Of a stretch of DNA of 47,087 nucleotides, positions 2,344 to 23,170 are shown piece after piece. The stretch lies in the IMG/VR virus record IMGVR_UViG_3300046747_000203, positions 1 through 47,087 of that record; one strand, given 5' to 3'. A program made the translations under genes and the position numbers. The notes beneath the pieces are model-generated. The model made no database searches. It saw only the letters and a list, made by a program, of their open reading frames with translations, and had not been told where the DNA came from. Numbering within the stretch: position 1 is the stretch's first letter; every line of letters starts with the position of its first letter. Origin of the DNA: a virus.

Positions 2344-4344
2344 GTGGCACGTAAACGCGGCCTCGAAGGCCTGCCCCCGTCCGATCCAGAGAATCCTGAC
2401 GAAGTCCCGGCCGGGCCGGACCGCGTAGCCCCAGGCACCGGCACCCCGAAACCAGCGATAGCGGTCACCCTGACCGAAGAAGAAGTTCAGATTCTCGCTG
2501 AGGAATTCTCAACCGAGATCGAGCTTCAGCACGCGGCGCAGGAACCGAACCGGCAGGACTGGGAGAAATGGCTCCGCCTCTACCGGGCGCAGCCGAACTT
2601 CCAGGTCAAGACCTATCCGCTTCAGTCTTCATCGAACGTCGTCGTCGCCCTGTCCGCCATCTACACGGACCAGGTCGTTGCGCGGATCATGCAGTCGATC
2701 TTCCAGCCGGAGCCCCTCTGGGTCGTCTCCGAGCTGAACCGGAGAACTGCCGCCGCGGCAAAGCCTTACGAACGCTGGCTCGACTGGAACCGGAAGAACA
2801 CCTGGGACGAGTACCGGGCAATCAAGCCCTTCGTTCAGGACGTCGTGAAGCTCGGGACGGGCATCGTCTACAACGACTGGCGAAACGAAACCATCTACCG
2901 GTACGACGACAAGACGAGAACGACGGTCGAGTCGGGTTCCCGTAAGGGACCGCGCCCGGCTTGGGTGCCGCGGGAAGATTTCCTGCTGCCGATCGGATTC
3001 AACGACATCCAGCAGGCTCCGTGGTGCGCGCACCGGATCTGGTGCTCCTGGGACATGATGGAGCGCTGGGCTCACCAGAACATCATCGACCGGACGCAGT
3101 TCGCAAAGCTGAAGGGACACTCGGACGACGAGAGCCAGCTCCGCCTCGAGCGCCGCTCGAACCACGAGCGGATGGCCGACGGGAGCGCGGACGACCGCTT
3201 CGGTATCTGGTCCCCCTGGTATGTCTGGTTCAACCGGGACCTAGACCGAGACGGCTGGCCTGAGTGCTACGTCATGCTCCTCCACACCGGGGAGAAGGCA
3301 GTGCTCCGGCTCCAATCGAATCCGTCCCCCTCAGCGACTCGCCCCTACGTTTCTGCACGCTTCATCGAGGTCGAGGGAGAGTTCGACGGCATCGGCATCC
3401 CCGAGCAAGTCGAGTCCCTACAGGAAGAAGCAACGACGATTCACAATCAGCGAAGAGATCGCTCGCATCTAGCCAACATCGTCATGTACAAGGGGTCGGC
3501 TACCGGGAACCTCCCGAACACAATCCGTCCCGAATCTGGGAAAGTCATCAAGGTTCTCGACCCGAAGGACCTTCAGGAGTTCCACCCGTCATCGAACGTT
3601 TCCGAGCAAGTCTTCGAGGAAGAATCCGTCACTCGGCTAGCGGAGCTTCGCGTAGGGCTGAACGACCCGGGCCTCGGGAAAGCTACGAGTCCGGTCGGGC
3701 GCGCAGCGGCTACGACGATGATGGCGCTCATGCAGGAGGGCACACGCAGGTTCGACTTGAACGTCTCGGACATCCGGACAGCACTCAGCGAGCAGGGGCA
3801 TCAGCTAACGGAGGCTTGGCAAGTCTATGGTCTCCCGGAACCCGACGAATCTGGATCGCCGGAGCAAGTACTGGACGAAGATGATGCAGCCATCGTTCGA
3901 GAGCTACTGTCGATGCCCGTCAATCTCCGGGGACTCATTGCCATCCAGATCAACATTTCCACCGCAGCGATCAACCGCGAGGTGGAGAAGCAGTCGAACA
4001 TCCAGTTGTACCAAATCGTACAGGGCTACATGCAGCAGGTTCTGCAACTATCAATGGCGGTTGCGAACCCGCAGATTCCTCCCCCGATAAAAGAACTAAT
4101 CGTCCACGGGGTCGAGGGACTCGACAAGCTCCTGAAGCGGATCTTCCAGGCCCATAACGCTTTCGACCTGGAGACCGTCCTCGTCGGAGACATCTTCGGC
4201 GAAATGGCGATGCAGGTGCAGCAGCAGCCGATGCTGCCGGGTCCGCAGGGACAGATGCCGGGCCAGCAGCAAGCGGCAGCGGCAGCCGGACAGCAAGGCG
4301 TTAGCCCGCTCATCGAGGCCCTCCATAAAGGGCAGATGCAGTGA
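2344..4344 (+). CDS. Portal protein
   Basis: A 666-residue protein that should form the dodecameric DNA gate at the capsid vertex, the docking point for terminase and tail adaptor. Length and position (after terL, before scaffold and coat) fit the large portals of P22-like podoviruses. The N-terminal half has the typical portal pattern of a charged helix followed by a conserved TYPLQSSSNVVVALSAIYTD stretch, then Trp-rich clip and wing segments. The last 60 residues are rich in Gln, Met, Pro and Ala, as in portals with a C-terminal barrel or disordered tail. The start is GTG, 10 bases after palindrome copy 2, with no strong Shine-Dalgarno. The next gene overlaps its stop by 4 bases (GTGA). Confidence 0.85.
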   Translation: MARKRGLEGLPPSDPENPDEVPAGPDRVAPGTGTPKPAIAVTLTEEEVQILAEEFSTEIELQHAAQEPNRQDWEKWLRLYRAQPNFQVKTYPLQSSSNVVVALSAIYTDQVVARIMQSIFQPEPLWVVSELNRRTAAAAKPYERWLDWNRKNTWDEYRAIKPFVQDVVKLGTGIVYNDWRNETIYRYDDKTRTTVESGSRKGPRPAWVPREDFLLPIGFNDIQQAPWCAHRIWCSWDMMERWAHQNIIDRTQFAKLKGHSDDESQLRLERRSNHERMADGSADDRFGIWSPWYVWFNRDLDRDGWPECYVMLLHTGEKAVLRLQSNPSPSATRPYVSARFIEVEGEFDGIGIPEQVESLQEEATTIHNQRRDRSHLANIVMYKGSATGNLPNTIRPESGKVIKVLDPKDLQEFHPSSNVSEQVFEEESVTRLAELRVGLNDPGLGKATSPVGRAAATTMMALMQEGTRRFDLNVSDIRTALSEQGHQLTEAWQVYGLPEPDESGSPEQVLDEDDAAIVRELLSMPVNLRGLIAIQINISTAAINREVEKQSNIQLYQIVQGYMQQVLQLSMAVANPQIPPPIKELIVHGVEGLDKLLKRIFQAHNAFDLETVLVGDIFGEMAMQVQQQPMLPGPQGQMPGQQQAAAAAGQQGVSPLIEALHKGQMQ

Positions 4345-4592
4345 TCGGGCGGAAGTCGCTCGATAGCCCGCTCGACTACCGCGAGCTCTGGCTCCAGCTA
4401 GCCGCTCGCGTCGAGGAGTTGTCCGCCAAGGCAGCTACCGATGCGATGAACGACGACGACGAAGTCAGCATCCGTAAGAAGCAGGGGGCGTATCGATTCG
4501 GATACACTATCCTGTCCGAGATGGATCGGATGGTGGAAGAAGCCCGCGCGCAGTTCGGCCCGCTACGGCAATCCCGTGCTGGCCTAGCTTGA
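4341..4592 (+). CDS. Small helical protein of unknown function
   Basis: An 83-residue acidic, mostly helical protein. GTG overlaps the portal TGA by 4 bases (GTGA), so translation is probably coupled to the portal. The gene contains palindrome copy 3 at 4490-4505 within its coding sequence, and an in-frame ATG at 4521 lies 15 bases after that palindrome. No family is recognised. Its position between portal and scaffold suggests a head-assembly accessory. Confidence 0.65.
   Translation: MIGRKSLDSPLDYRELWLQLAARVEELSAKAATDAMNDDDEVSIRKKQGAYRFGYTILSEMDRMVEEARAQFGPLRQSRAGLA
4490..4505. promoter_or_regulatory. GTATC-N6-GATAC palindrome, copy 3 (inside a gene)
   Basis: Perfect 5-6-5 inverted repeat with centre GATTCG, inside the preceding small gene and exactly 140 bp upstream of copy 4. 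It is followed by GATACACTATCC and an in-frame ATG at 4521. This is the only copy within a coding sequence, so it may be chance or an upstream auxiliary site. Confidence 0.45.
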
Positions 4593-4618
4593 CATTGTTG
4601 TACAGCGACCGCTAGAAA
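4589..4618 (+). promoter_or_regulatory. Candidate promoter upstream of scaffold and coat genes
   Basis: TTGACA at 4589-4594 is a perfect -35 box. TAGAAA at 4613-4618 is a 4-of-6 -10 box with an 18-base spacer. The predicted start of transcription lies a few bases before palindrome copy 4 (4630-4645), a classic operator position. This is the best sigma70-like match noticed among the late genes. Confidence 0.5.
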
Positions 4619-4629
4619 CGCTTAGGCAT

Positions 4630-4645
4630 GTATCCAATTCGATAC
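4630..4645. promoter_or_regulatory. GTATC-N6-GATAC palindrome, copy 4
   Basis: Perfect 5-6-5 inverted repeat with centre CAATTC, between the candidate promoter at 4589-4618 and the scaffold ATG at 4666. A GGAGG ribosome-binding site lies between the palindrome and the ATG. Confidence 0.62.
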
Positions 4646-4665
4646 TCGACGGAGGCCACGCGCTA

Positions 4666-5538
4666 ATGGCAGACGGCGACATCGCTCCGGAACGGGCTCC
4701 GGCCCCTCCGAAGCAGACAGCACCAGACCCCGAAATGACTCGGCTCCGTGCCGAAGCTCAAGAAGCCGCCGCACTTCGCGGACAGCTGAATCAGGTAGCC
4801 GAGATGGTTCAGTCCGGCCGCTTGATCCTGAAGCAGCCCGAAGCCCCGAAGGCCGCAGAGCCGGAAGACGATTCCGCGCTCATCGACCGACGGGAACTGA
4901 AGCGGGCGGTGGATGAGATCAAGACCACGGCAGCGAACGTCATCGTCGAGACGGCCACTCACAGTGCCCGTCAGATGCGCGTTCTCGCCAAGGACTCCAT
5001 GCGGGGCCGCCTCAAGAACTTCGACAAGTACGAGAGCGAAATCGACGCCCTCCTCGAGAAGATTCCTGATCCGCGCGTAGCGGCCTCTCCCGAGACGATT
5101 GCCCAGGTGCACAAGATTGTCCGGGCCAATCATATCGAAGACGAGATGGCTGACACGCTCGCAGAGAAGAAGGCCGAGTGGGAAACCGACCTTCGCTCCA
5201 AGGGCTGGACGCCGGACGAGATCGAGGAAGAGGTCGATGACCGTGCCGAGGCGCTACGGGAAGACGCGGTCGAGGCGGTGGGTGCGGGGCGGGGTGAGCG
5301 AGAGGGCTCCCGACAAGCGCGGCCAGTAGCCCGGTCAGCCGGGGTAGCGCCTGCGGGCAACGCCTCGGGAGCCCGTCTTGCCGCAAGCCGTCAACGAGCC
5401 GCCGTACCTCCTCTGAGCCGCGACGAGCGCGTCATGGCCGATCAGTTCGGCATCGCAAGCGCCGAGGAATACCGCCGCTACGGAGACCCGAATTACCGCC
5501 ACGATTCACTAGGCTTCAAGGGAAGGAAGAGGATCTGA
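4666..5538 (+). CDS. Scaffolding protein (probable)
   Basis: A 290-residue protein, highly charged and largely helical, just upstream of the coat region, the usual place and composition for the internal scaffold that guides procapsid assembly and then leaves. The N-terminal 70 residues are rich in Pro, Ala and Glu. A long coiled-coil-like centre (about 75-210) has many Glu, Arg and Lys. A basic Ala/Arg linker leads to a conserved-looking C-terminus, LSRDERVMADQFGI, which could be the coat-binding helix. ATG 4666 is preceded by GGAGG. No protease signature is visible, so a protease-scaffold fusion is unlikely. The call rests on composition and order, not on a recognised family motif. Confidence 0.62.
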   Translation: MADGDIAPERAPAPPKQTAPDPEMTRLRAEAQEAAALRGQLNQVAEMVQSGRLILKQPEAPKAAEPEDDSALIDRRELKRAVDEIKTTAANVIVETATHSARQMRVLAKDSMRGRLKNFDKYESEIDALLEKIPDPRVAASPETIAQVHKIVRANHIEDEMADTLAEKKAEWETDLRSKGWTPDEIEEEVDDRAEALREDAVEAVGAGRGEREGSRQARPVARSAGVAPAGNASGARLAASRQRAAVPPLSRDERVMADQFGIASAEEYRRYGDPNYRHDSLGFKGRKRI

Positions 5539-5543
5539 CGGCA

Positions 5544-6038
5544 ATGGGAATCATGGTGACGAAAGACGAGGCGGACAAGCGCGTCGAGGGCATGAAGGCC
5601 GAACGGCAGAGGATCGTTTCCTCCGGCCGCTCGGAACGCTCAATCACTGAAGAGCTCGTCGCCCGCGAGACGGAACTCTCCCGCACTGCGATCCACAATC
5701 CGAATCCCAGAAAATCGTACCGGCTCGCCAACAAAGATCAGAAGGGCCGCATCGGAATACTGAAGGGCCTCGGCTACAAGCCGACTGACCCGAAGGACAA
5801 GGCTCAGCTCGTCACCGGAGAAGAAGTCGACGGGGCACAGACCCACGGCGATCTCATGCTCATGGAGACCCCGGTCGAGAACTACGAGCGCCGCCGCGGT
5901 CTCCGCATGAAGCGCCAGGCCGCCATTGCGGAAGAGCACGCCGAGGCGAGCCAAGAGACAATCAACCAGATCGCTCGGGACGGTGGTCTCGTCGGTCCTC
6001 ATCAAGAAGCCGCTTTCGACGACAGTCGAGACGGCTAG
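5544..6038 (+). CDS. Structural-region protein of unknown function
   Basis: A 164-residue, strongly charged protein starting 5 bases after the scaffold stop. ATG 5544 is used here; a second in-frame ATG lies four codons on. The N-terminal half (DEADKRVEGMKAERQRI) and the C-terminal part (YERRRGLRMKRQAAIAEEHAEA) look like helices. No domain is recognised. Position between scaffold and head proteins suggests a minor scaffold or head component. Confidence 0.65.
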   Translation: MGIMVTKDEADKRVEGMKAERQRIVSSGRSERSITEELVARETELSRTAIHNPNPRKSYRLANKDQKGRIGILKGLGYKPTDPKDKAQLVTGEEVDGAQTHGDLMLMETPVENYERRRGLRMKRQAAIAEEHAEASQETINQIARDGGLVGPHQEAAFDDSRDG

Positions 6039-8223: not shown

Positions 8224-8511
8224 ATGTCCCAATCAAACTACAGAGCCCTCTGGTACCCGATTTCTCGGTGGCGTTGGCATACCCACGAGAACTTCGACGA
8301 TTCCCGTTCCTACACGCATCTAGTTAGGCGGCGGCTTGGCGCTCGGTGGGGATACGACCATCGGGGCCGGTTCTCGTTCACTATCTTCTACGACTCGGCG
8401 ATGTGCCGGGAGGGGTGTGATGTGGTGGTTGGGCACAAGCCCTACATCGGCCAGTCCACACTCGCTATCGGGACGAAGCACTGGTGGACTCTTCTCGGGC
8501 ACCGGCCATGA
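8224..8511 (+). CDS. Protein of unknown function, start of sugar cassette
   Basis: A 95-residue aromatic- and Arg-rich protein (six Trp, many Arg and His). It starts 45 bases after the decoration gene and its TGA overlaps the epimerase ATG by 4 bases, so it is the first gene of a tightly coupled series running to 13155. Codon use is somewhat less GC-biased than in the head genes, which fits a recently gained cassette. No family is recognised. Confidence 0.55.
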   Translation: MSQSNYRALWYPISRWRWHTHENFDDSRSYTHLVRRRLGARWGYDHRGRFSFTIFYDSAMCREGCDVVVGHKPYIGQSTLAIGTKHWWTLLGHRP

Positions 8512-9533
8512 AGAGCATTTACATCACCGGCATCGGCGGCCTTGTCGGCTCTGCGGTAGCGGAGCGGGCGCTTGGGCTTGGGTACAGAGTCTCTGGCTCC
8601 GAGTCCGATGCTCGGGGGCGGTGGTTTGCAGGCGGTTCGGTGGGGTGGCGAGTCACCGAACTCGAAGCCAAAGGCGTGGAAGTCTTTCGTCGGGATTTTC
8701 GCGTGCGCCCGGAAGAAGCGGTCAAGGGCGCGGACGTGATCGTACACTGCGCGTCACAGCCCTCTCACGATCTCTCGAAAGAGCAGCCCGTGGAGGACTC
8801 CGCACTCAACTTCATGGGAACGGTAGAACTGCTTGACGCTGCACGTCTCTACGCACCCGGTGCCGTGTTCGTGTTTCTTTCAACGAATAAGGTCTACGGG
8901 GATCGTGTAAACAAGTTTCGGTACCGTCAAGTGGGCGATCGCCTCGAGCTTGACGAAGCAGGAACAGGTCTAACGCCATGGTTTGGCGTGAGCGAGGAGA
9001 TGAGCCTCGACGCTTCATTGCATACCCCTTTCGGTGCCTCTAAAGCGGCGGCCGACCTGATGGTGCAGGAGTACCGACGCTGTTATGGGTTACAAACCGT
9101 TTCCCTTCGTTGTGGTTGCTTGACCGGCCCTACTGGCTCTGCCGTAGAGCTACACGGATTCCTAGGGTACCTAGTCAAGTGCGCCATGCGAGGAAATCCT
9201 TACACAATATATGGGTACGGCGGTTATCAGGTACGCGATAACTTGTGTGCCTCGGACCTGGCTCAGGCAATCCTGACGTATGCGGAAAACCCAAAGGGGG
9301 CCGTATACAACATGGGCGGAGGCCGGGCGAACTCGATCTCCGTGCTCGAAGCGCTGAAGTACCTGAAGAAGCTCGGCCACTCGATGCCGACCCTTCACGG
9401 CCCGCAGCGCCTAGGGGATCACAAGTGGTGGGTATCGGATCTCCGTAGGTTCCAGGGCGACTACCCCGGCTGGAAGCCGGAGACGGATGTCTACGAGACG
9501 ATCGACTCGATAGCGCAGAGGTATCAGGAATGA
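8508..9533 (+). CDS. NAD-dependent sugar-nucleotide epimerase (extended SDR)
   Basis: A 341-residue Rossmann-fold enzyme acting on a nucleotide-activated sugar, most like the CDP-paratose/tyvelose 2-epimerase branch. The NAD motif GIGGLVG is at residues 8-14; VIVHCAS and FLSTNKVYG mark the dinucleotide and active-site strands. The usual catalytic YxxxK is FGASK at 175-179, with Phe where the general family has Tyr. RCGCLTGP and ELHGFL followed by YLVKCA and VRDN are strongly reminiscent of this epimerase branch. ATG 8508 overlaps the previous stop (ATGA). With the downstream glycosyltransferases it probably makes or edits a sugar placed on the virion or host surface. The substrate is unknown. 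Confidence 0.85.
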   Translation: MKSIYITGIGGLVGSAVAERALGLGYRVSGSESDARGRWFAGGSVGWRVTELEAKGVEVFRRDFRVRPEEAVKGADVIVHCASQPSHDLSKEQPVEDSALNFMGTVELLDAARLYAPGAVFVFLSTNKVYGDRVNKFRYRQVGDRLELDEAGTGLTPWFGVSEEMSLDASLHTPFGASKAAADLMVQEYRRCYGLQTVSLRCGCLTGPTGSAVELHGFLGYLVKCAMRGNPYTIYGYGGYQVRDNLCASDLAQAILTYAENPKGAVYNMGGGRANSISVLEALKYLKKLGHSMPTLHGPQRLGDHKWWVSDLRRFQGDYPGWKPETDVYETIDSIAQRYQE

Positions 9534-15505: not shown

Positions 15506-18337
15506 GTGCGGGGAAGCTACAAAATCGGTGTCATTGCGGTCTTTTCCGCAGCTACAATCGCGCTCGCTGGCTCCACGCAGACGCGCGGAAGGTTAACCGG
15601 CAGGGCTCACCACGGCGGGGGTAGTATACCGCCAACGGCTACCGCTACTCCGACGTCCGCTCCGCCTGCTCCGACGGCGACTCGTACTCCGACCGCTACT
15701 CCGACGTCTACGCCGACTCCGGTCGTGACGCCGAGCGGCTGGGGCGCGGATACGGCGGGCGGCACCGGGCAGACCACCGTCCACGTCACCAATACGAATG
15801 ACTCAGGCGCAGGGAGCCTCCGGACGGCCCTCTCGGCGGGCAACCGGAACATCGTCTTCGACGTCGGCGGGACGATCAGCCTGGCGTCGCGGCTTCTCGT
15901 GAACGGCTCGTTCGTCACGGTAGACGGGTCGACCGCCCCGAGCCCCGGCATCACGCTCACGAACTACAGCCTCCGGCTCGAGGGCAGCACGGTCCACGAC
16001 ATCATCCTGACGAACTTCCGCTCGCGCGCCCCGACGCTCGATACGGAGCCGGACAACGTCACGATCAAGAACGGGGCCTACAACATCCTGATCGACCACC
16101 TGTCCACGGATAGTCCGTCGGACGGGAATATCGACATCACCCTCGGCAGCCACGACATCACGGTCCAGTACAGCATTCTGAGCAACGGCACGAAGTCGAT
16201 GCTCTTGAATTACGCGACCTACCACGTCTCGATTCACCATAACCTCTTCATCAATGAGCAGTACCGGAGCCCGAATACCCAGTACGACGACGCGGCTACG
16301 AGCATGTCTCCGAGCGTCATTTCGGACGTCCGGAATAACGTCATCTGGAACTGGGGAGACTCGGGCGGCGGCTCGATCTGGCAGTGCGGAGGCACCGGGA
16401 ACGACGTCGCCAACTACTACTATTCGGGGGCGACGACGCCTTCCCGGAAGGCCAACGGCATCGTCAACGACGGATGTTCGGGAGGCACAGCACAACCCCA
16501 GTTCTACACCTCGGGGAACTTCAGCGGGGACGATTCCAGCTCGCATCTGAACGCGCAGGGAACGGTCGGCGGGGCCTGGTCGGCTCCGGTCATCGAAGAG
16601 CAGGCCGTCTGCGACGCAGCGACTCTCGTCAAGGGAGGGGCTGGAACGACCCCACTCGATGCGACCGATACGGCGCTTCTGAATGCCGTCTCTCTCGTCG
16701 GCTGCGTATCCCCGACGGCTACTCCGACGGCTACTCCGACGGCTACCAGGACTCCGACGGCAACGCCTACGGCAACCCGGACTCCTACTCCGACGCCGAC
16801 ACCGAGCGGGGGAATCAACCCGATCAATCCGGACTCTGATCTCACCTACCTCGGAGCTTTCCGGGTGCCGAACGACAACAACGCCGAGTGGACATTCGGG
16901 GGCACGGCCATGACCGTGAACCCGGCTGGAGACTCCGGAAACGGCTCCCTCTACCTGTCGGGCCTGACGATTGGGGCCGGGCACGGGAAATTCGCCGAGA
17001 TCAACATTCCGACTCCGATCATCGATCCGGACCTGAACAACCTGACTCGGGCAACGACGATTCAGGCCATGGCGGATATCGCTCCGGGGCTACACCCGAA
17101 CGACACACAGACGACCTTCCAGATGAGCGATCCGCTCTTCGGAGCCGTCAGCAATAAGTTGATGTGGACGCGGTACATCTTCTACCTCCCGGCGAGCGAG
17201 GCAACGCTCGGGTGCTCGAGCACGACCATATCGTCTCCGGCTCCGACCGGCCCCTGGAAGATCGGCCCGACACAGGCCGGGAACTACGGCGGAGCGACAC
17301 TTGGGCGCTGGCTCTTCATGCTGCCGCAGTCGTGGGCAGACGCGCACACCGGGGGCCGGGCTCTCGCTACCGGGCGCTTCCGAACGAACGCGAACGCGGG
17401 CGGAACATCCTGGGGGCCGTCCCTATTCGCGCTCCCGATGGCTTGCACGTCCGGAGCCTCGGACGCTGTCGAGGTCATGCACAACACGTCCCGCGATACG
17501 CGCTGGGCGCATGAGACCTGGGCAGACGACTGGAACGATGCCGACTGGGTAACGACTCCGACCGGGAACAAGGCGGCGATGGTGGTTGCCGGGGCGAAGG
17601 CGGAGCGGGAAGACGGCGGAAACGCCTGCGGATTCAACTTCTGCGGCTCCAGCCGCGGCGCTCAGTACTACGGCCACCCGCAAGCACACGACTGCGGAGG
17701 GAAGGGAAACCACGGGGCACCCATCTTCGGGGCACTCCTCTTCTACAACGTGAACCAGCTCGCCTCGGCTGCCGATGGGTCGATAGCGAAGGACTCGATC
17801 GACCCCTACGCGATCTACCAGATACGGGCCAATCAGTACCTGACGAGCCAGTGCAAGAAGGGCGGATTCGGGGGCATTGCCTACGACTCCACACATCACC
17901 GGCTCTACGTCGCGGAGCTGAACGCGGAGCTTCCCTCGACGACTCAGAAGCCGATCATCCACGTCTGGGCGGTTGCGGACGGAGGGGGCTCGGCAGACAC
18001 GACGGCTCCGGCAGTACCGACGGGACTCCACACGACGAGCGTGTCCGGAGCGGGCGTTGCGCTTGCCTGGAATGCGGTCACGGACCCAGCGGGCGGGGTC
18101 GTCTACATCGTCTACCGTAACCCGATTGACCAGGAGCTATTCGCTCCGGAGACGACGGTGCCTTACGGGCAGCGGTATCCGGCTGGGCCACAGCCATTCG
18201 CGATCACGTCGAGTCTCTCCTACACGGACGACTTGGAAATCAACTCGGGCATTACCTACACGTACTATGTGGCGGCGCGCGATTCGCTCGGGAACACGAG
18301 TGCACGGTCGAGCGGCGTAACGGCGGCAATCCCATAG
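15506..18337 (+). CDS. Pectate-lyase-like depolymerase with FN3 domain
   Basis: A 943-residue mosaic. Residues 1-25 form a signal-like segment; 43-77 a Thr/Pro linker; about 78-400 a right-handed beta-helix of the polysaccharide-lyase-1 kind (VHVTNTNDSGAGSLRTALS, VFDVGGTI, NILIDHLS at 193-200, VSIHHNLF at 241-248, YRSP at 253-256), where IDH and R-S-P match the lyase-1 signatures. A second Thr/Pro linker (402-435) leads to a ~390-residue domain beginning LTYLGAFRVP, not identified, and an FN3-like domain at about 831-943. It probably cleaves host polysaccharide. A signal segment is odd for a virion spike and suggests export or membrane docking. GTG 15506 follows GGGAGGGG. Confidence 0.8.
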   Translation: MRGSYKIGVIAVFSAATIALAGSTQTRGRLTGRAHHGGGSIPPTATATPTSAPPAPTATRTPTATPTSTPTPVVTPSGWGADTAGGTGQTTVHVTNTNDSGAGSLRTALSAGNRNIVFDVGGTISLASRLLVNGSFVTVDGSTAPSPGITLTNYSLRLEGSTVHDIILTNFRSRAPTLDTEPDNVTIKNGAYNILIDHLSTDSPSDGNIDITLGSHDITVQYSILSNGTKSMLLNYATYHVSIHHNLFINEQYRSPNTQYDDAATSMSPSVISDVRNNVIWNWGDSGGGSIWQCGGTGNDVANYYYSGATTPSRKANGIVNDGCSGGTAQPQFYTSGNFSGDDSSSHLNAQGTVGGAWSAPVIEEQAVCDAATLVKGGAGTTPLDATDTALLNAVSLVGCVSPTATPTATPTATRTPTATPTATRTPTPTPTPSGGINPINPDSDLTYLGAFRVPNDNNAEWTFGGTAMTVNPAGDSGNGSLYLSGLTIGAGHGKFAEINIPTPIIDPDLNNLTRATTIQAMADIAPGLHPNDTQTTFQMSDPLFGAVSNKLMWTRYIFYLPASEATLGCSSTTISSPAPTGPWKIGPTQAGNYGGATLGRWLFMLPQSWADAHTGGRALATGRFRTNANAGGTSWGPSLFALPMACTSGASDAVEVMHNTSRDTRWAHETWADDWNDADWVTTPTGNKAAMVVAGAKAEREDGGNACGFNFCGSSRGAQYYGHPQAHDCGGKGNHGAPIFGALLFYNVNQLASAADGSIAKDSIDPYAIYQIRANQYLTSQCKKGGFGGIAYDSTHHRLYVAELNAELPSTTQKPIIHVWAVADGGGSADTTAPAVPTGLHTTSVSGAGVALAWNAVTDPAGGVVYIVYRNPIDQELFAPETTVPYGQRYPAGPQPFAITSSLSYTDDLEINSGITYTYYVAARDSLGNTSARSSGVTAAIP
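15632..15736 (+). repeat. Thr/Pro-rich linker repeat 1
   Basis: Degenerate ACTCCGACG-type hexamer and nonamer repeats coding a Thr-Pro-Ala linker between the signal segment and the lyase domain. Expected to be unstructured and extended. Confidence 0.7.
16709..16810 (+). repeat. Thr/Pro-rich linker repeat 2
   Basis: A second block of the same GGCTACTCCGAC-type repeats after the lyase domain, more regular than the first. The two blocks bracket the lyase domain and share sequence, which would allow recombination to swap or delete the domain between them. Confidence 0.7.
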
Positions 18338-18357: not shown

Positions 18358-19776
18358 ATGAACAAACGGCGAAGTACCGTGATTATGTGGGGCCTGGTCG
18401 GCGTTCTCGCCGCGTCCATGCTCGGCATCACCACGGACCAGATCATCCAAAACGTCTACGACCCGGTAAACACCGCTCTACGGGCAAACGTCATCGGTGG
18501 GAGCGGCTCGCTCTCGCTGACCGTCGGGACGACTCCGATCACGAACGGGGCCGATACGCGAGTCCTCTTCCAAGACGGTACGGTACTCGGGGAAGACTCG
18601 GGACTCGTCTTCAACAAGACGACGAATGCGGTATCGGCGGGCGGAGACGTCACGGCCGGAGCCCTCGGGACGGGACCGGGAACCTTTACTGCGGATGCCG
18701 ATAGCTGCGTCACGCTCTCCGGGGCCTCGACGAACGTCCTCTGTTCGGACGCGGTCGGGGGATGGCTCGCCTCCGAGCTCGGCGGCGGATACTCGCATCA
18801 GCTCACGGCCAACTCTACGGACGTCGTCACGAACAAGACTTTTAACGGCATCACGTTTACCGGAGCTGTCACGGGACTCACCTCGGGACTCGTTCCACTG
18901 GCTTCGTCTTCGACGGGCCTTGCGGATTCGTCCTCCTACCGAGTGAGTCTGGCAAACTCCGGCTCTACCGGAACGACGGTCAACAAGACCGCCAAGCTCT
19001 CTTCGGCTGGGGCAGGCGTCATCATGTCGGCAGGCGATACGGCGGGTATCTTCGGCATCGTCGAATCGGGAGCAGGAACGACGGGAAGCGCGATCGTCAC
19101 CCTGATCGGCCTGACGACTTGCGTCTCTGACAACTCGACCACGACCGGCCATTACGCGGGGCTCTCGTCTTCGGTTGCAGGAGACTGTACCGACCTCGGA
19201 GCCTCGTTCCCGTCTACCGGAGTCGCCGTCATCGGCACATGGAAGGAGACCGGAGCGGCTGCGGCTCGGTCGATCCTTTTCAACACTCCTGACGTGTCGA
19301 GCGTGAGCGCGGCGACGAACGGAAACGGCAACGGCCCCGGCGTCAAGGGTTCGGGCACGGCGAACCTCATCCCCAAGTTCAGCAACGGCAACACCATCGG
19401 GAACTCGTCGATCACGGACAACGGGACGACCATCAGCTCGAGCGAGATCCTGTCGGTTGGGGCACTCACCTACAACGGGAAGCTCAACATCGCGGACATC
19501 ACCGCCGAGAACGCGAGCTTCACCATCGCTCACCGGATCGAGTACGTGACCACCTCGACGAGCACGATCGTAGCGACGACTCCGACCTCCCCGACGGTTG
19601 GGGACACCTACACGGTCGTCAAGGTAGACAGTGGAAACGGCAACATCACCTGGACGCGGGCGGGCTCCCAGACGCTCAACGGAGCAACCACGCGGGTCGT
19701 GTCGGCGCAGTACGCCGTCGATACCTGCACGTACATGGCCTCGAACGTGTGGATTTGCCAGGGTAACGGGACATGA
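18358..19776 (+). CDS. Tail-fibre-like protein with N-terminal membrane anchor
   Basis: A 472-residue protein. Residues 1-24 hold one hydrophobic span (VIMWGLVGVLAASMLGI), then TTDQIIQNVYDPVNTALR, the motif shared with the 51-residue protein at 15324. The rest is Ser/Thr/Gly-rich with fibre-like repeats (VVTNKTFNGITFTGAVTGL, GNSSITDNGTTISSSEIL), and the C-terminal ~80 residues have the look of a carbohydrate-binding tip (VGDTYTVVKVDSGNGNITW). The fibre call rests on composition and the TNKTF signature. Its TGA overlaps the next gene's ATG by 4 bases. Confidence 0.65.
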   Translation: MNKRRSTVIMWGLVGVLAASMLGITTDQIIQNVYDPVNTALRANVIGGSGSLSLTVGTTPITNGADTRVLFQDGTVLGEDSGLVFNKTTNAVSAGGDVTAGALGTGPGTFTADADSCVTLSGASTNVLCSDAVGGWLASELGGGYSHQLTANSTDVVTNKTFNGITFTGAVTGLTSGLVPLASSSTGLADSSSYRVSLANSGSTGTTVNKTAKLSSAGAGVIMSAGDTAGIFGIVESGAGTTGSAIVTLIGLTTCVSDNSTTTGHYAGLSSSVAGDCTDLGASFPSTGVAVIGTWKETGAAAARSILFNTPDVSSVSAATNGNGNGPGVKGSGTANLIPKFSNGNTIGNSSITDNGTTISSSEILSVGALTYNGKLNIADITAENASFTIAHRIEYVTTSTSTIVATTPTSPTVGDTYTVVKVDSGNGNITWTRAGSQTLNGATTRVVSAQYAVDTCTYMASNVWICQGNGT

Positions 19777-20771
19777 TCCGTAGACTCCTAGTCGCTCTCC
19801 TGGTCACGGTCGTCGCTGCGGGTGGGGCGTTCGGCTCCATCTACTCGACGACGATTCAGGCGGATGCCCCGGTGCATTGGTACAGGCTCGGAGAAACGAG
19901 CGGGACGGTCGCGAACGATGCCGGATCGTCGGTGGTTGCCGGAGACTACGCCGGAACCCTGAACACCGGGTATTTCCTGAGCGAGGTAGGCATCACCGGG
20001 GCGCTCCCGAATACGGCCGCTCGGTTCAACGGGACGACGGGGGACGTATCGACCAATCTGGCGACGGTTGCGGCCGTGGGTATCCCGTCATCGGCGAACG
20101 GCGTCGGGTGGAGCTTCGAGGGATGGGCAAAGACGTCCGCGAACGCCACCACGCAGTCAATCGCCGGGAACAACGGCACCAAAGCTGGCTGGGTAACGGG
20201 CTTTCACTCGACGAACAAGTTCTTCTTCAACATGGACAACGACTCGGGGACCTGCGGCGGTTCGACTTACGGCACCACCGGGAACGTCGGAAGCTGGTCC
20301 ACCGGGAACTACTACCACGTCGTCGCAACGAGCATCGGAGCCGGATCGGCGCAACTGACGAACATGAAGCTCTACGTGAACGGCTCCCTCCTCTCCACGG
20401 TTACGAGCTTTACCGGATCGATCTGTACGACGGGAATGCACGTCGTTCTCTTGGCCGCGCGCGACGGAACCACTCCCGGCCTCTTCATGACCGGCACGCT
20501 GGACGAAGCGGCCTTCTACCAGGCGCAGCTCTCCCAGACCCAGGTGACGACCCACTACAACGCGGGCATCTCGGTCTCCGGCTCTTTCGCCTGGCCCTTC
20601 CAGACGAGACGCCCAGAACTTCCCGGCTTCATCAACAAAGATTACTTGGCCCAGGCCGTGGCACGCGGGTACAATACGGGGCTTCTGACGTCACGGGAGA
20701 TCCACCCACAGCTCCTGAACGTCGGCTATGCGAACTTCGCACAGATGCCCTGGGGGAATGTTGGACACTGA
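19773..20771 (+). CDS. LamG/concanavalin-like adhesin with signal peptide
   Basis: A 332-residue protein. Residues 1-22 are a clear signal peptide (MIRRLL, then a Val/Ala-rich core). The mature protein starts a concanavalin-type (LamG_3) domain: APVHWYRLGETSGTVANDAG is the typical first strand, followed by ARFNGTTG, WSFEGWAKT, LYVNGSLLSTV and GTLDEAAFYQAQLS, the standard series for this fold. The C-terminal ~70 residues are not recognised. It should bind glycans. The signal implies export or docking at a membrane, as for the three genes upstream. The end overlaps a tiny membrane gene by 14 bases. Confidence 0.75.
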   Translation: MIRRLLVALLVTVVAAGGAFGSIYSTTIQADAPVHWYRLGETSGTVANDAGSSVVAGDYAGTLNTGYFLSEVGITGALPNTAARFNGTTGDVSTNLATVAAVGIPSSANGVGWSFEGWAKTSANATTQSIAGNNGTKAGWVTGFHSTNKFFFNMDNDSGTCGGSTYGTTGNVGSWSTGNYYHVVATSIGAGSAQLTNMKLYVNGSLLSTVTSFTGSICTTGMHVVLLAARDGTTPGLFMTGTLDEAAFYQAQLSQTQVTTHYNAGISVSGSFAWPFQTRRPELPGFINKDYLAQAVARGYNTGLLTSREIHPQLLNVGYANFAQMPWGNVGH

Positions 20772-20853
20772 CACTAGCGGAATCGTCCGAATCGCGGCGC
20801 GGGTGGTGATGTATGCGGTGGCGGGGCTCTGCCTTATCTACATCTTCAACTAA
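20758..20853 (+). CDS. 31-residue single-span membrane protein
   Basis: A tiny frame, ATG 20758 with GGGGG just upstream, coding a short polar start (MLDTDTSGIVRIAAR) and one hydrophobic segment (VVMYAVAGLCLIYIFN). It overlaps the adhesin end by 14 bases. It could be a pinholin-like or accessory membrane peptide at the head of the lysis region. Too short for family assignment. Confidence 0.45.
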   Translation: MLDTDTSGIVRIAARVVMYAVAGLCLIYIFN

Positions 20854-20875
20854 GCCTCCGCTCCGGCTGAACGTC

Positions 20876-20968
20876 GTGGCAAGGATCGCCCTCGTCGTCT
20901 GGGCGATGCTGCTCGCTGCCCGCTGCCATTCCTACTGCGAAGTCTACGAGTGGGAGCAGCACCCCTAG
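20876..20968 (+). CDS. 30-residue lipoprotein-like peptide
   Basis: GTG 20876 to TAG 20968 codes MARIALVVWAMLLAARC followed by a short polar tail. The LLAARC ending resembles a lipobox with Cys at residue 17, although Ala-Arg before the Cys is not ideal. Small lipoproteins beside endolysin genes are reminiscent of Rz1 spanins, but no Rz partner overlaps it. The next gene begins 1 base after its stop. Confidence 0.4.
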   Translation: MARIALVVWAMLLAARCHSYCEVYEWEQHP

Positions 20969-20969
20969 G

Positions 20970-21155
20970 ATGACTCTCCTTGCCGACTACGCCCCGCTCC
21001 TGATCGCCGTCAGCGCGGGGATGCTTTCCTTCGCCTGCCTCTACTACCTCGCGCTCCTGATTGTCCTCTGGGCTATTCGGAATTCCATCGACCGGCTATC
21101 GCGCGCCGTCTACATGACTCGGAAACAGCCCGAACGAGAGCCGGAATGGCGATAG
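20970..21155 (+). CDS. Small membrane protein directly upstream of PAS gene
   Basis: A 61-residue protein with a long hydrophobic region, LLIAVSAGMLSFACLYYLALLIVLWAI, long enough for one long or two short spans, then a basic amphipathic tail. Its TAG (21153-21155) is immediately followed by the ATG of the PAS protein, so readthrough would make a membrane-anchored PAS protein. Alone it could be a holin or signal-transduction anchor. Confidence 0.6.
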   Translation: MTLLADYAPLLIAVSAGMLSFACLYYLALLIVLWAIRNSIDRLSRAVYMTRKQPEREPEWR

Positions 21156-21569
21156 ATGCCTGACATGATCCACGTTCTCGCCGACCAGCTTTCCACTCTC
21201 GCCAAGTCGGTCCGCCACCACGAGACGATTACAAATGCCGTCTTTGAGGGAAACCCCGACGGGCTCGTGGTAGTGAATGAACTCGGCACAATCGCTATGG
21301 TGAACGAGAGCTTAGAAAGAATGACCGGCTACAACCGACGGGACCTAGTCGGGAGGCCGGCGGAGATTTTGGTTCCGGAAGGAAGCCGCGAAAGACACGT
21401 CATGCACAGACTCAGCTACCTCATCAAGCCGACCGCGCGGCAGATGAATGGGGCGTTCACGATACAAACCGCAGACGGGGGCGCTCTTCCCGTAATGGTC
21501 GGGCTCTATCCGGCAGGTTCCAACGGGGACCGCTGGGTCGTAGTCACCGTTCGGGGTCGGCTTGGGTGA
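21156..21569 (+). CDS. Stand-alone PAS-domain protein
   Basis: A 137-residue protein almost entirely one PAS fold. After a short N-terminal helix come FEGNPDGLVVVNELGTIAMV, NESLERMTGYNRRDLVGRP, EILVPEGSRERHVMHR and PVMVGLYP with a final WVVVTVRG strand, in the order of PAS sensor domains of bacterial kinases and cyclases. There is no kinase, GGDEF or HTH output domain. PAS domains bind small ligands or mediate partner binding. A PAS protein in a phage lysis region is unusual. It could sense host state to time lysis or interfere with host PAS signalling. The cofactor is not predictable from sequence. Confidence 0.85.
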   Translation: MPDMIHVLADQLSTLAKSVRHHETITNAVFEGNPDGLVVVNELGTIAMVNESLERMTGYNRRDLVGRPAEILVPEGSRERHVMHRLSYLIKPTARQMNGAFTIQTADGGALPVMVGLYPAGSNGDRWVVVTVRGRLG

Positions 21570-21933
21570 ACAGCATGACATCGCCTCTGAGCTCGACGCT
21601 GTAGCCAAGAAACTCATCCTCACCAAAGGGCAGCGAGAAGTCCGGATCGCCGACATCGTCGCCCTCCTGTCGATTGCCGGGATGATCTACACCTTCATTT
21701 CGTCCCAGTCGGCTCTCCAGGCAGCGATCGGACTGAAGCTCGACCTCCTCGAGCGGGAGATCGCGGAGCTTCGGAAGATCTCCGATCCGGTGCCGATGAT
21801 GGTCTACAAGGTCGATGCGCTCGCGCGGTCGCAGGAAGAGAACGAGCGGCAGAGGCAGATGGCCATGCAGGACCTTCGCGAGATGCACGACAGCCTGATT
21901 GCGATGGGCATCAACCTGAAAGGCAAGAGGTAG
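21562..21933 (+). CDS. Membrane protein with coiled-coil tail, lysis region
   Basis: A 123-residue protein, TTG start 21562 overlapping the PAS stop by 8 bases. Residues 1-28 are charged helix, then one membrane span (IVALLSIAGMIYTFISS), then an extended heptad-like helix (LKLDLLEREIAELRKI... EENERQRQMAMQDLREMHDS). One span plus a long periplasmic coiled coil resembles an Rz-type spanin or a holin accessory. It lies directly before the endolysin. Confidence 0.6.
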   Translation: MGEQHDIASELDAVAKKLILTKGQREVRIADIVALLSIAGMIYTFISSQSALQAAIGLKLDLLEREIAELRKISDPVPMMVYKVDALARSQEENERQRQMAMQDLREMHDSLIAMGINLKGKR

Positions 21934-21936
21934 TGA

Positions 21937-22032
21937 GTGGAGGAGGAGGACCAGGGGCCGCGGGAACGCCGCCCGCGATTCATGTTCAGGCTGTCTCTTA
22001 CAGCCATCCTCAAGTGGCTGTTCGGCAGATGA
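21937..22032 (+). CDS. Candidate 31-residue cationic amphipathic peptide
   Basis: GTG 21937 opens a short frame after GGTAGTGA; it codes an acidic then Arg-rich start (MEEEDQGPRERRPRF) and a cationic amphipathic segment (FRLSLTAILKWLFGR). Its TGA overlaps ATG 22029, the natural start of the endolysin catalytic domain, in the ATGA manner used at many junctions here. It competes with an alternative in which the endolysin has a 32-residue extension from GTG 21933. Function, if any, would be membrane disturbance. Confidence 0.4.
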   Translation: MEEEDQGPRERRPRFMFRLSLTAILKWLFGR

Positions 22033-22451
22033 GCGACTTCGACAAATGCGTCTCGATCATCATCGACGACTTCGAGGGGGGCGACAAAGTCGTCTACGAC
22101 TCGGGCGGAGCCACCCGGTTCGGCATCTCCTCCAGGGCCCACCCCGGTCTCGACATCCCGAACCTCTCCAGGGAGCAGGCAATCGAGATTTACAAGCGGA
22201 GTTACTGGGACGAGATCGGAGCGGACAAGCACCCCTGGCCGATGAACCTGGTGCTCTTCGACGCGGCCGTCAACCAGGGCGCTCCCTACGCCGAGGCGCT
22301 TGCCATGTCCGCCGTCGATTACGTGGAAGCGCTTCTCATGAGGGTGGAGCGCTATACGGACATCGCAAAGAAGAACCCGCTCCTTCGGAAGTACCACTAC
22401 GCATGGGTCAATCGTGTCGTCAGGATCTACGAAATGCTACAAAAGGCATGA
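22029..22451 (+). CDS. Endolysin, glycoside hydrolase 108 type
   Basis: A 140-residue muramidase-like endolysin that should cut peptidoglycan. The domain opens MSDFDKCVSIIIDDFEGGDK, with the Glu-Gly-Gly of GH108 as probable catalytic Glu, then SGGATRFGIS matching the GG-T-FGI motif, NLSREQAIEIYKRSYWDEIG and LVLFDAAVNQGA, all in family order. The C-terminal helical part ends KYHYAWVNRV. ATG 22029 is preferred because it begins exactly at the domain and overlaps an upstream TGA; the frame stays open to GTG 21933, which would add 32 unrelated residues. No signal peptide is visible, so a holin is needed. Confidence 0.82.
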   Translation: MSDFDKCVSIIIDDFEGGDKVVYDSGGATRFGISSRAHPGLDIPNLSREQAIEIYKRSYWDEIGADKHPWPMNLVLFDAAVNQGAPYAEALAMSAVDYVEALLMRVERYTDIAKKNPLLRKYHYAWVNRVVRIYEMLQKA

Positions 22452-22461
22452 GGGAAAATCG

Positions 22462-22815
22462 ATGACTTGGGTACTAGACCTTCTGAAGCTCCTCTTCGGT
22501 AGCTCGTCGAACGCAGCCCTTCTGACCGTGGCTCGGGACGTGGTCGCAGAGGCTACGACCGCGCTCATCAACAACATCGCCGCGGTTGGGGTCGAGGACG
22601 GGGCTCGGTTCATCGCCGACGCCCGCGCGCTCTCCGTCCAGATCAACGCGAAGACGGATGCTACCGGGGTCCAGAAGATGGAGCTTTACCTGTCGGCCGC
22701 CAAGGAACTGATCGTCGAGCTCGGCGGGGACGTCGGGCATGTGCTGGCGGAATCGGTCACTCGGACGCTCGCGGAGCTGTTCCACCAGACCGACGCTAAC
22801 CTTCCGCGTGGATGA
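22462..22815 (+). CDS. Helical protein next to endolysin
   Basis: A 117-residue protein. The first 15 residues are hydrophobic (WVLDLLKLLFG), the rest Ala-rich amphipathic helices (ALLTVARDVVAEATTALINN). ATG 22462 follows GAGGGAAA. Its end overlaps the next GTG by 8 bases. It may be a membrane-associated lysis helper or a small virion component. No family recognised. Confidence 0.55.
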   Translation: MTWVLDLLKLLFGSSSNAALLTVARDVVAEATTALINNIAAVGVEDGARFIADARALSVQINAKTDATGVQKMELYLSAAKELIVELGGDVGHVLAESVTRTLAELFHQTDANLPRG

Positions 22816-23170
22816 GAAGAAGAAAGTAAGAGAGTGGATCGAGACAACGTTCGCTCTCTCTTGGAAAGACGAAATCGAGTTATCGCTGGCGTGGGGAGTG
22901 CTGAAGCGGAAGGGGCCGATCATGAAGGAAGTGATAACGAGGTTCTGGACCGACCCGGCTTACTTCACGGCCGCGTGCCGGTCTCTCGCGACACTCATAG
23001 CGACACTAGTCCTGACGGGAGTCATTCCGGTCCCGGAGTCGATCTCGCATCAGGTCTGGTGGACGGCAGTCGTGCTACCGGCGCTTTCGCAGCTCTTCCC
23101 GGCTGGGCAGACAAACCGGACGGACCAGCAGGTCAGGGACGTCGCGCGAGGGTTTCCAGGGAAGCTGTGA
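22808..23170 (+). CDS. Holin-like protein with two possible starts
   Basis: The long form from GTG 22808 has 120 residues with a charged N-terminal extension (MDEKKKVREWIE). ATG 22922, preceded by GGAAGGGG, gives an 82-residue short form (MKEVITRFWTDPAYF...). Both contain two spans (SLATLIATLVLTGVIPV and WWTAVVLPALSQLF), the class II holin pattern. Two starts giving forms that differ in a charged N-terminus resemble the holin/antiholin dual start of lambda-like phages. It lies beside the endolysin and its TGA overlaps the next GTG. Confidence 0.65.
   Translation: MDEKKKVREWIETTFALSWKDEIELSLAWGVLKRKGPIMKEVITRFWTDPAYFTAACRSLATLIATLVLTGVIPVPESISHQVWWTAVVLPALSQLFPAGQTNRTDQQVRDVARGFPGKL

Follow-up and report, generated by a model that had tools for sequence, protein, structure and literature searches.

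A virus genome carries a stand-alone PAS domain gene in its lysis block, and stand-alone PAS genes abut or overlap genes for membrane-anchored coiled-coil proteins in three phage lineages. The analysis establishes that the protein is a PAS domain with no output domain, and it documents the order and tight junctions of the genes, the recurrence of the setting and the conservation of the proximal heme-ligand histidine. We infer heme binding, docking and control of lysis, and tentatively propose, at somewhat under an even chance, that oxygen or redox state acts on lysis through a cytosolic heme-type PAS protein bound to a membrane coiled-coil protein that is translated together with it. The window, by which we mean the whole stretch of DNA analyzed, is an IMG/VR virus record of 47,087 bases. 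It was compared with its relative L001 (IMGVR_UViG_3300046798_000067), whose PAS is 94% identical. The genes in the region of interest are listed below, with transmembrane segments abbreviated as TM.

15506-18337 (+): pectate-lyase-like tail protein, upstream of the lysis block (phrog_27797, 2.7e-21)
19773-20771 (+): laminin-G/concanavalin-like domain protein, just upstream of the membrane ORFs (Pfam Laminin_G_3, 3.2e-12)
20758-20853 (+): 31-aa single-TM ORF of holin-like size and shape (hydropathy 2.14 for residues 12-30; no family match)
20813-20968 (+): 51-aa ORF with one TM, doubtful as a gene (codon score 0.004; open in L001 too)
20970-21155 (+): 61-aa membrane protein (hydrophobic stretches at residues 1-19 and 22-40; no family match)
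21156-21569 (+): stand-alone PAS, 137 aa (Pfam, phmmer against the PDB, AlphaFold2, Foldseek, alignments)
21562-21933 (+): 123-aa protein, spanin-like or XhlA-like (cytosolic N-terminus, TM at residues 29-47, then a coiled coil)
21933-22451 (+): GH108 endolysin (Pfam PF05838, 2.6e-16, 60.4 bits against a cut-off of 21.2; phrog_315, 8.9e-28)
22462-22815 (+): 117-aa protein with no assigned family, conserved in L001 (pN 0)
22919-23170 (+): 83-aa hydrophobic protein, holin candidate by shape only

The PAS gene sits between tail genes on one side and the TM and coiled-coil protein with the GH108 endolysin on the other. The first-pass annotation had placed it between a membrane protein and spanin and endolysin genes. 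The membrane gene stands, as does the endolysin, which scored over the PF05838 cut-off. The name spanin for the 123-aa neighbor is plausible from its topology, which includes a positive N-side of the TM; the protein had no Pfam or PHROG family match above cut-off, and no clear lipoprotein partner gene was found. Its TTG start (21562) overlaps the end of the PAS gene by 8 nt. The 31-aa ORF has a codon score of 0.27, like those of the structural genes. Elsewhere in the window, a nucleotide-sugar epimerase gene (8484-9533; phrog_540, 1.2e-37) lies among the head genes, and the C-terminal part of a terminase large subunit, followed by a DNA methyltransferase, lies at the left contig end (249-1453).

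The 137-aa protein, which starts with ATG, is a PAS domain with no output domain, as first annotated. It scored well above the curated cut-offs of two Pfam families, PAS_9 (PF13426; 8.6e-11, 42.5 bits against 27) and PAS (PF00989; 9.5e-11, 42.1 bits against 22.6), and sequence matches in the PDB agree with this assignment. Structure prediction, proposed with the first-pass annotation as a check on the PAS fold, gave that fold: an AlphaFold2 model built on an 18-sequence alignment had a mean pLDDT of 82.5 and the PAS order of elements, with two N-terminal helices ahead of the core, and Foldseek matched it to heme PAS domains at an E-value of about 2e-9. A model of the PAS from another contig (L021), built without an alignment, was of low confidence (pLDDT 57). 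PADLOC returned no match to the window PAS, and membership of a defense system was rejected.

By sequence (phmmer), the nearest PDB relatives of the window PAS were FG214 and FixL, with DosP also matched; by fold (Foldseek), the nearest solved structures were FG214, EcDOS and FixL. The PAS proteins of the other two lineages, represented by L019 and L029, behaved in the same way in that their strong PDB matches were all heme PAS domains. A control PAS from Bacillaceae preferred the CitA PAS, whereas a plasmid-borne PAS in the class of the phage proteins also preferred heme PAS, so the heme-PAS signal marks the class and not the phage. In helix F-alpha, H81 of the window PAS aligns with FixL H200, the heme-ligating histidine of that protein, and with FG214 H156; this histidine is invariant in the phage PAS (7/7). 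In FG214, H156 is the proximal heme ligand, and the spacing H156-H159-M172-H175 (PMC13060918) falls on H81, H84, M97 and A100 of the window PAS, which thus retains the proximal ligand but lacks the distal one. Neither FixL R220 nor FG214 H175 is conserved in the window, and the G-beta/H-beta hairpin is two residues shorter. Known heme PAS domains differ from one another in their distal residue, so its absence is not decisive. In our estimate, the window PAS is somewhat more likely than not to bind heme.

The sensed input was originally suggested to be redox state, oxygen, light or a small ligand. Of these, redox or oxygen sensing gains support from the comparisons above: in all three lineages, heme PAS domains are the nearest structures, and the proximal histidine is invariant. 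Light sensing of the LOV type is unlikely to be a property of this PAS: there is no cysteine in the 137-aa sequence, which excludes LOV adduct chemistry, and none of its best relatives is a flavin domain. We rejected a LOV photoreceptor on these two grounds.

The stop codon of the 61-aa ORF, TAG at 21153-21155, is followed at the very next base by the ATG of the PAS gene, in the same frame and with no gap. This junction was described correctly at the outset, together with the suggestion that amber readthrough yields a membrane-anchored PAS (61-aa protein plus PAS, 199 residues). The in-frame TAG-ATG sequence is identical in L001, a copy too similar to reveal codon conservation across the stop. 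Against readthrough, TAG is an ordinary stop codon, present at the end of the 943-aa and 784-aa ORFs as well as others, and no tRNA at all, hence no suppressor tRNA, was detected by ARAGORN in the window genome. The junctions in the block measure +1, 0, -8 and -1 nt and are equally tight, and where an ATG directly follows a stop codon at other junctions of these phages, the stop is TGA or TAA. Outside the window and L001 the in-frame junction is not kept: in L020, L021, L029 and L030 the PAS gene and the membrane gene before it share an ATGA overlap and are read in different frames, in L019 the PAS follows an unrelated ORF, and in L019-L030 the upstream frame is unreadable into the PAS. Because the TAG is ordinary, tRNA genes are absent, tight junctions are the rule and the other lineages cannot be joined in this way, readthrough is an unneeded assumption, and we consider it extremely improbable.

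To see how widely the gene occurs, we scanned 2.9 million viral contigs of IMG/VR with a PAS profile pattern and obtained four PAS-encoding contigs, three of which (3/4) carry a stand-alone PAS. The fourth (L018, 1/4) was rejected as a stand-alone case: this 21.7-kb viral contig encodes a 792-aa multi-PAS kinase-like ORF (3618-5993), followed by a response-regulator-like ORF. A second profile scan added two contigs and a third returned the same set again. Altogether, stand-alone PAS genes were found in six contigs besides the window (L001 included), which form three lineages with it; the two further lineages comprise five contigs and encode PAS proteins of 133-144 aa. These counts are lower bounds, since the scans reach only contigs that match the patterns exactly. 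One of the further lineages is represented by L019, with the following features:

4944-5345: PAS, 133 aa
5342-5578: XhlA-like 78-aa coiled coil with a C-terminal TM, overlapping the PAS gene by ATGA
From 7103: M15 endolysin (phrog_17001, 4.9e-35), 1.8 kb downstream of the PAS gene

Upstream of the L019 PAS lies another TM and coiled-coil ORF, with weak matches to Rz-like spanins. In L020, L021, L029 and L030, the upstream membrane gene overlapped by the 144-aa PAS encodes a coiled coil of 115-117 aa with a C-terminal TM. Matches of this partner to known families were weak: XhlA at 13.5 bits, below the cut-off of 34.7, and in PHROG a holin family (phrog_689, 1e-3) and phrog_937 (7e-4); PADLOC gave only weak coiled-coil matches for the L020 partner. 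A holin gene is recognizable nearby in L020 (phrog_9752, 1.1e-8) and in L030 (phrog_1299, 5.4e-6), and no endolysin was recognized within 5 kb of the PAS in these four contigs. A small proline- and glycine-rich ORF follows the PAS in L020 (5626-5859), L021 (5315-5539) and L029 (5480-5650). Thus, in each of the three lineages the PAS gene abuts or overlaps a TM and coiled-coil gene, and a holin or endolysin gene lies nearby. The first-pass annotation had staked its link to lysis on homologues lying beside lysis genes, and in these other phages the homologues also adjoin membrane and lysis genes.

The pairing bears on the possibility that the free PAS is a decoy or hijacker. PAS domains commonly dimerize, and a phage copy might pair late in infection with the PAS of host kinases or cyclases, or with their partners, and so jam or redirect host signaling; the position among lysis genes would then reflect a convenient late operon. 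Both the lack of an output domain and a canonical PAS core closest to host sensor kinases are in keeping with such a role. However, the three lineages pair the PAS tightly with a membrane coiled-coil gene and not with early or takeover genes, and the L020 group keeps the pair with the PAS as its better conserved member (68-72%, against 55% for the membrane neighbor). We regard a decoy as unlikely.

Searches outside these contigs gave little. The window PAS had no match by tblastn in 50,697 isolated-phage records, even at an E-value of 10, and in the same records the L020 PAS gave none and the FixL PAS only short matches at chance level. The sole match of the L019 PAS was to a PAS protein of multi-domain size from a jumbo phage, Phosso, with an E-value of 0.1. 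In this 469-kb Sinorhizobium phage (L032), the gene at 3839-5143 encodes a 434-aa protein annotated as a PAS domain S-box protein and lies away from the annotated lysis genes. A prophage search in bacterial genomes with the PAS of the L020 group returned nothing. All related PAS domains that we found in bacterial genomes (45/45) lie inside ORFs of at least 292 aa, and a tree of phage and bacterial PAS did not decide between one origin and several captures.

Comparison of the window with L001, which has the same ORFs in the same order, gave pN/pS values of 0.41 for the PAS, 0.05 for the endolysin and 0.07 for each of the 61-aa and 123-aa ORFs. The higher value for the PAS is local: 15 of its 17 differences fall inside a 75-nt patch (21295-21369, residues 47-72), a clustering that was reached in none of 2000 random placements of all 63 differences. 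Outside the patch, the PAS has no nonsynonymous and two synonymous changes. The substitution pattern between the two genomes indicates that the PAS frame is coding. The flanks of the patch are near-identical, and many of the replacements within it are conservative, so that it resembles gene conversion with a third, more distant copy. This suggests recombination with a third PAS-bearing phage; further phages with the PAS gene would then be implied. Upstream, the C-terminal part of the laminin-G protein (20500-20768, with the frame assumed from 20500) has a pN/pS of about 2, unlike all its neighbors, and is possibly a fast-evolving adhesion region.

The patch also testifies to recombination in the PAS gene, and the codon score of this gene (0.11) lies below those of its neighbors (0.2-0.32), as for a recent gain. 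The boundary between tail and lysis genes is a common site for the insertion of accessory genes, so the closeness of the PAS to lysis genes could be incidental. These points would fit a moron, acquired from the sensor kinase of a host, whose benefit to the infected cell has nothing to do with lysis. Such an origin leaves unexplained the same placement beside a TM and coiled-coil gene in three phage backgrounds, and there is no second PAS copy elsewhere in the window's genome; we think this reading quite improbable.

The reading that we prefer is a sensor split over two genes that would adjust the timing of lysis. The 137-aa protein would be a heme-type PAS like those of FixL, DosP and FG214, soluble in the cytosol and lacking an output domain of its own, through loss or from the start. 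It would be made together with the membrane-anchored coiled-coil protein (21562-21933), perhaps also with the 61-aa protein, and would dock, probably as a dimer, on the cytosolic part of its partner. A change at the cofactor, either binding of O2, NO or CO or a change in heme redox state, would shift the partner between states, and, depending on that state, the membrane would fail and the GH108 endolysin would reach the wall earlier or later. Several observations speak against this split sensor: the distal heme residues differ from those of FixL and FG214, the hairpin is shorter, the tail-lysis boundary often takes up accessory genes, four of the contigs have no recognized endolysin within 5 kb of the PAS, and the membrane partners, alike in layout, have no demonstrable homology between lineages.

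The lack of conserved distal heme-pocket residues is also what might be expected of a structural adaptor, that is, a cofactor-free PAS serving as a dimerization or chaperone module that holds the membrane coiled-coil protein, a holin or spanin precursor, in a soluble or inactive form until lysis. A PAS gene tied closely to a membrane coiled-coil gene in every lineage would suit an adaptor, and so would the short N-terminal helix that precedes the PAS core in the phage copies. It would, however, account neither for the invariant F-alpha histidine nor for the finding that, whichever lineage is considered, heme proteins are the closest relatives of known structure, and we judge it improbable.

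The split sensor may also be stated in general form, as an oxygen- or redox-gated lysis clock present in several phages, in which a stand-alone heme PAS acts without transcription on a co-translated membrane coiled coil of the lysis module; this broader version appears to us rather doubtful. Lysis timing is a central phage trait, and its known inputs are the holin allele, membrane energization and superinfection. If the proposal is true, a dedicated sensor of gas or redox state, located in the cytosol and encoded among the lysis genes, would add an input of a new kind and link the burst to host respiration. This would count most in soils, sediments and waters where oxygen gradients are steep. 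The PAS and its partner would form a small two-gene system open to laboratory testing.

Parts of this arrangement have counterparts in known systems. By sequence and fold, the window PAS belongs to the same class as FixL, EcDOS (DosP) and FG214 and keeps the proximal histidine (H81) and the equivalent of FG214 M172 (M97); unlike them, it has no kinase, EAL/GGDEF or HTH output and no distal Arg or His, and heme binding is predicted. The neighbors of the phage PAS resemble XhlA/hemolysin-type and Rz-type proteins, which are small TM and coiled-coil proteins of lysis blocks, with matches below curated cut-offs. We know of no such lysis protein with a PAS partner. In T4, lysis inhibition by RI and RIII is a phage sensing branch that shifts lysis time through the T holin, from the periplasm and the cytosol; it differs from the window system in having no PAS domain.

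A closer parallel in layout came from BFVD, where the fold of the window model matched proteins of the Cellulophaga phages phi19:1 and phi18:3, which we identified by length only as gp108 (240 aa) and gp090 (172 aa). In these hypothetical proteins of cultured phages, a single gene combines a TM, a coiled coil and a PAS-like domain, and it lies between tail genes and an endolysin. The relatives from Ingeline, phi38:2, Nekkels and phi10:1 are also encoded after a pectate lyase. For phi38:2, Nekkels and phi10:1 the annotation lists an endolysin or lysozyme close by, that of phi10:1 being a GH108 enzyme like that of the window. The Cellulophaga proteins showed no sequence homology to the phage PAS (hhalign probability 0.1) and no Pfam PAS match, so the parallel is one of layout and predicted fold only. 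Judging by N-terminal charges, their PAS-like domain may face the periplasm. Such TM, coiled-coil and PAS-like proteins are unannotated in the Cellulophaga phages (L093, L094, L095-L098), which belong to several cultured families.

In the open-access literature we found no paper that describes a phage lysis module with a stand-alone PAS protein. The nearest described case is VqmA of vibriophage VP882, a PAS-HTH receptor for DPO that feeds the lysis decision (PMC8284805). VqmA is likewise a phage-encoded PAS sensor affecting lysis, but it binds DNA and acts on transcription, whereas the window protein is PAS only, with no C-terminal HTH DNA-binding domain of the VqmA type or other output domain, and its neighbors are membrane and lysis genes. 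Lysis is thus already known to be influenced by a phage PAS sensor in the form of a transcription factor; what is new here is a stand-alone PAS in the lysis module.
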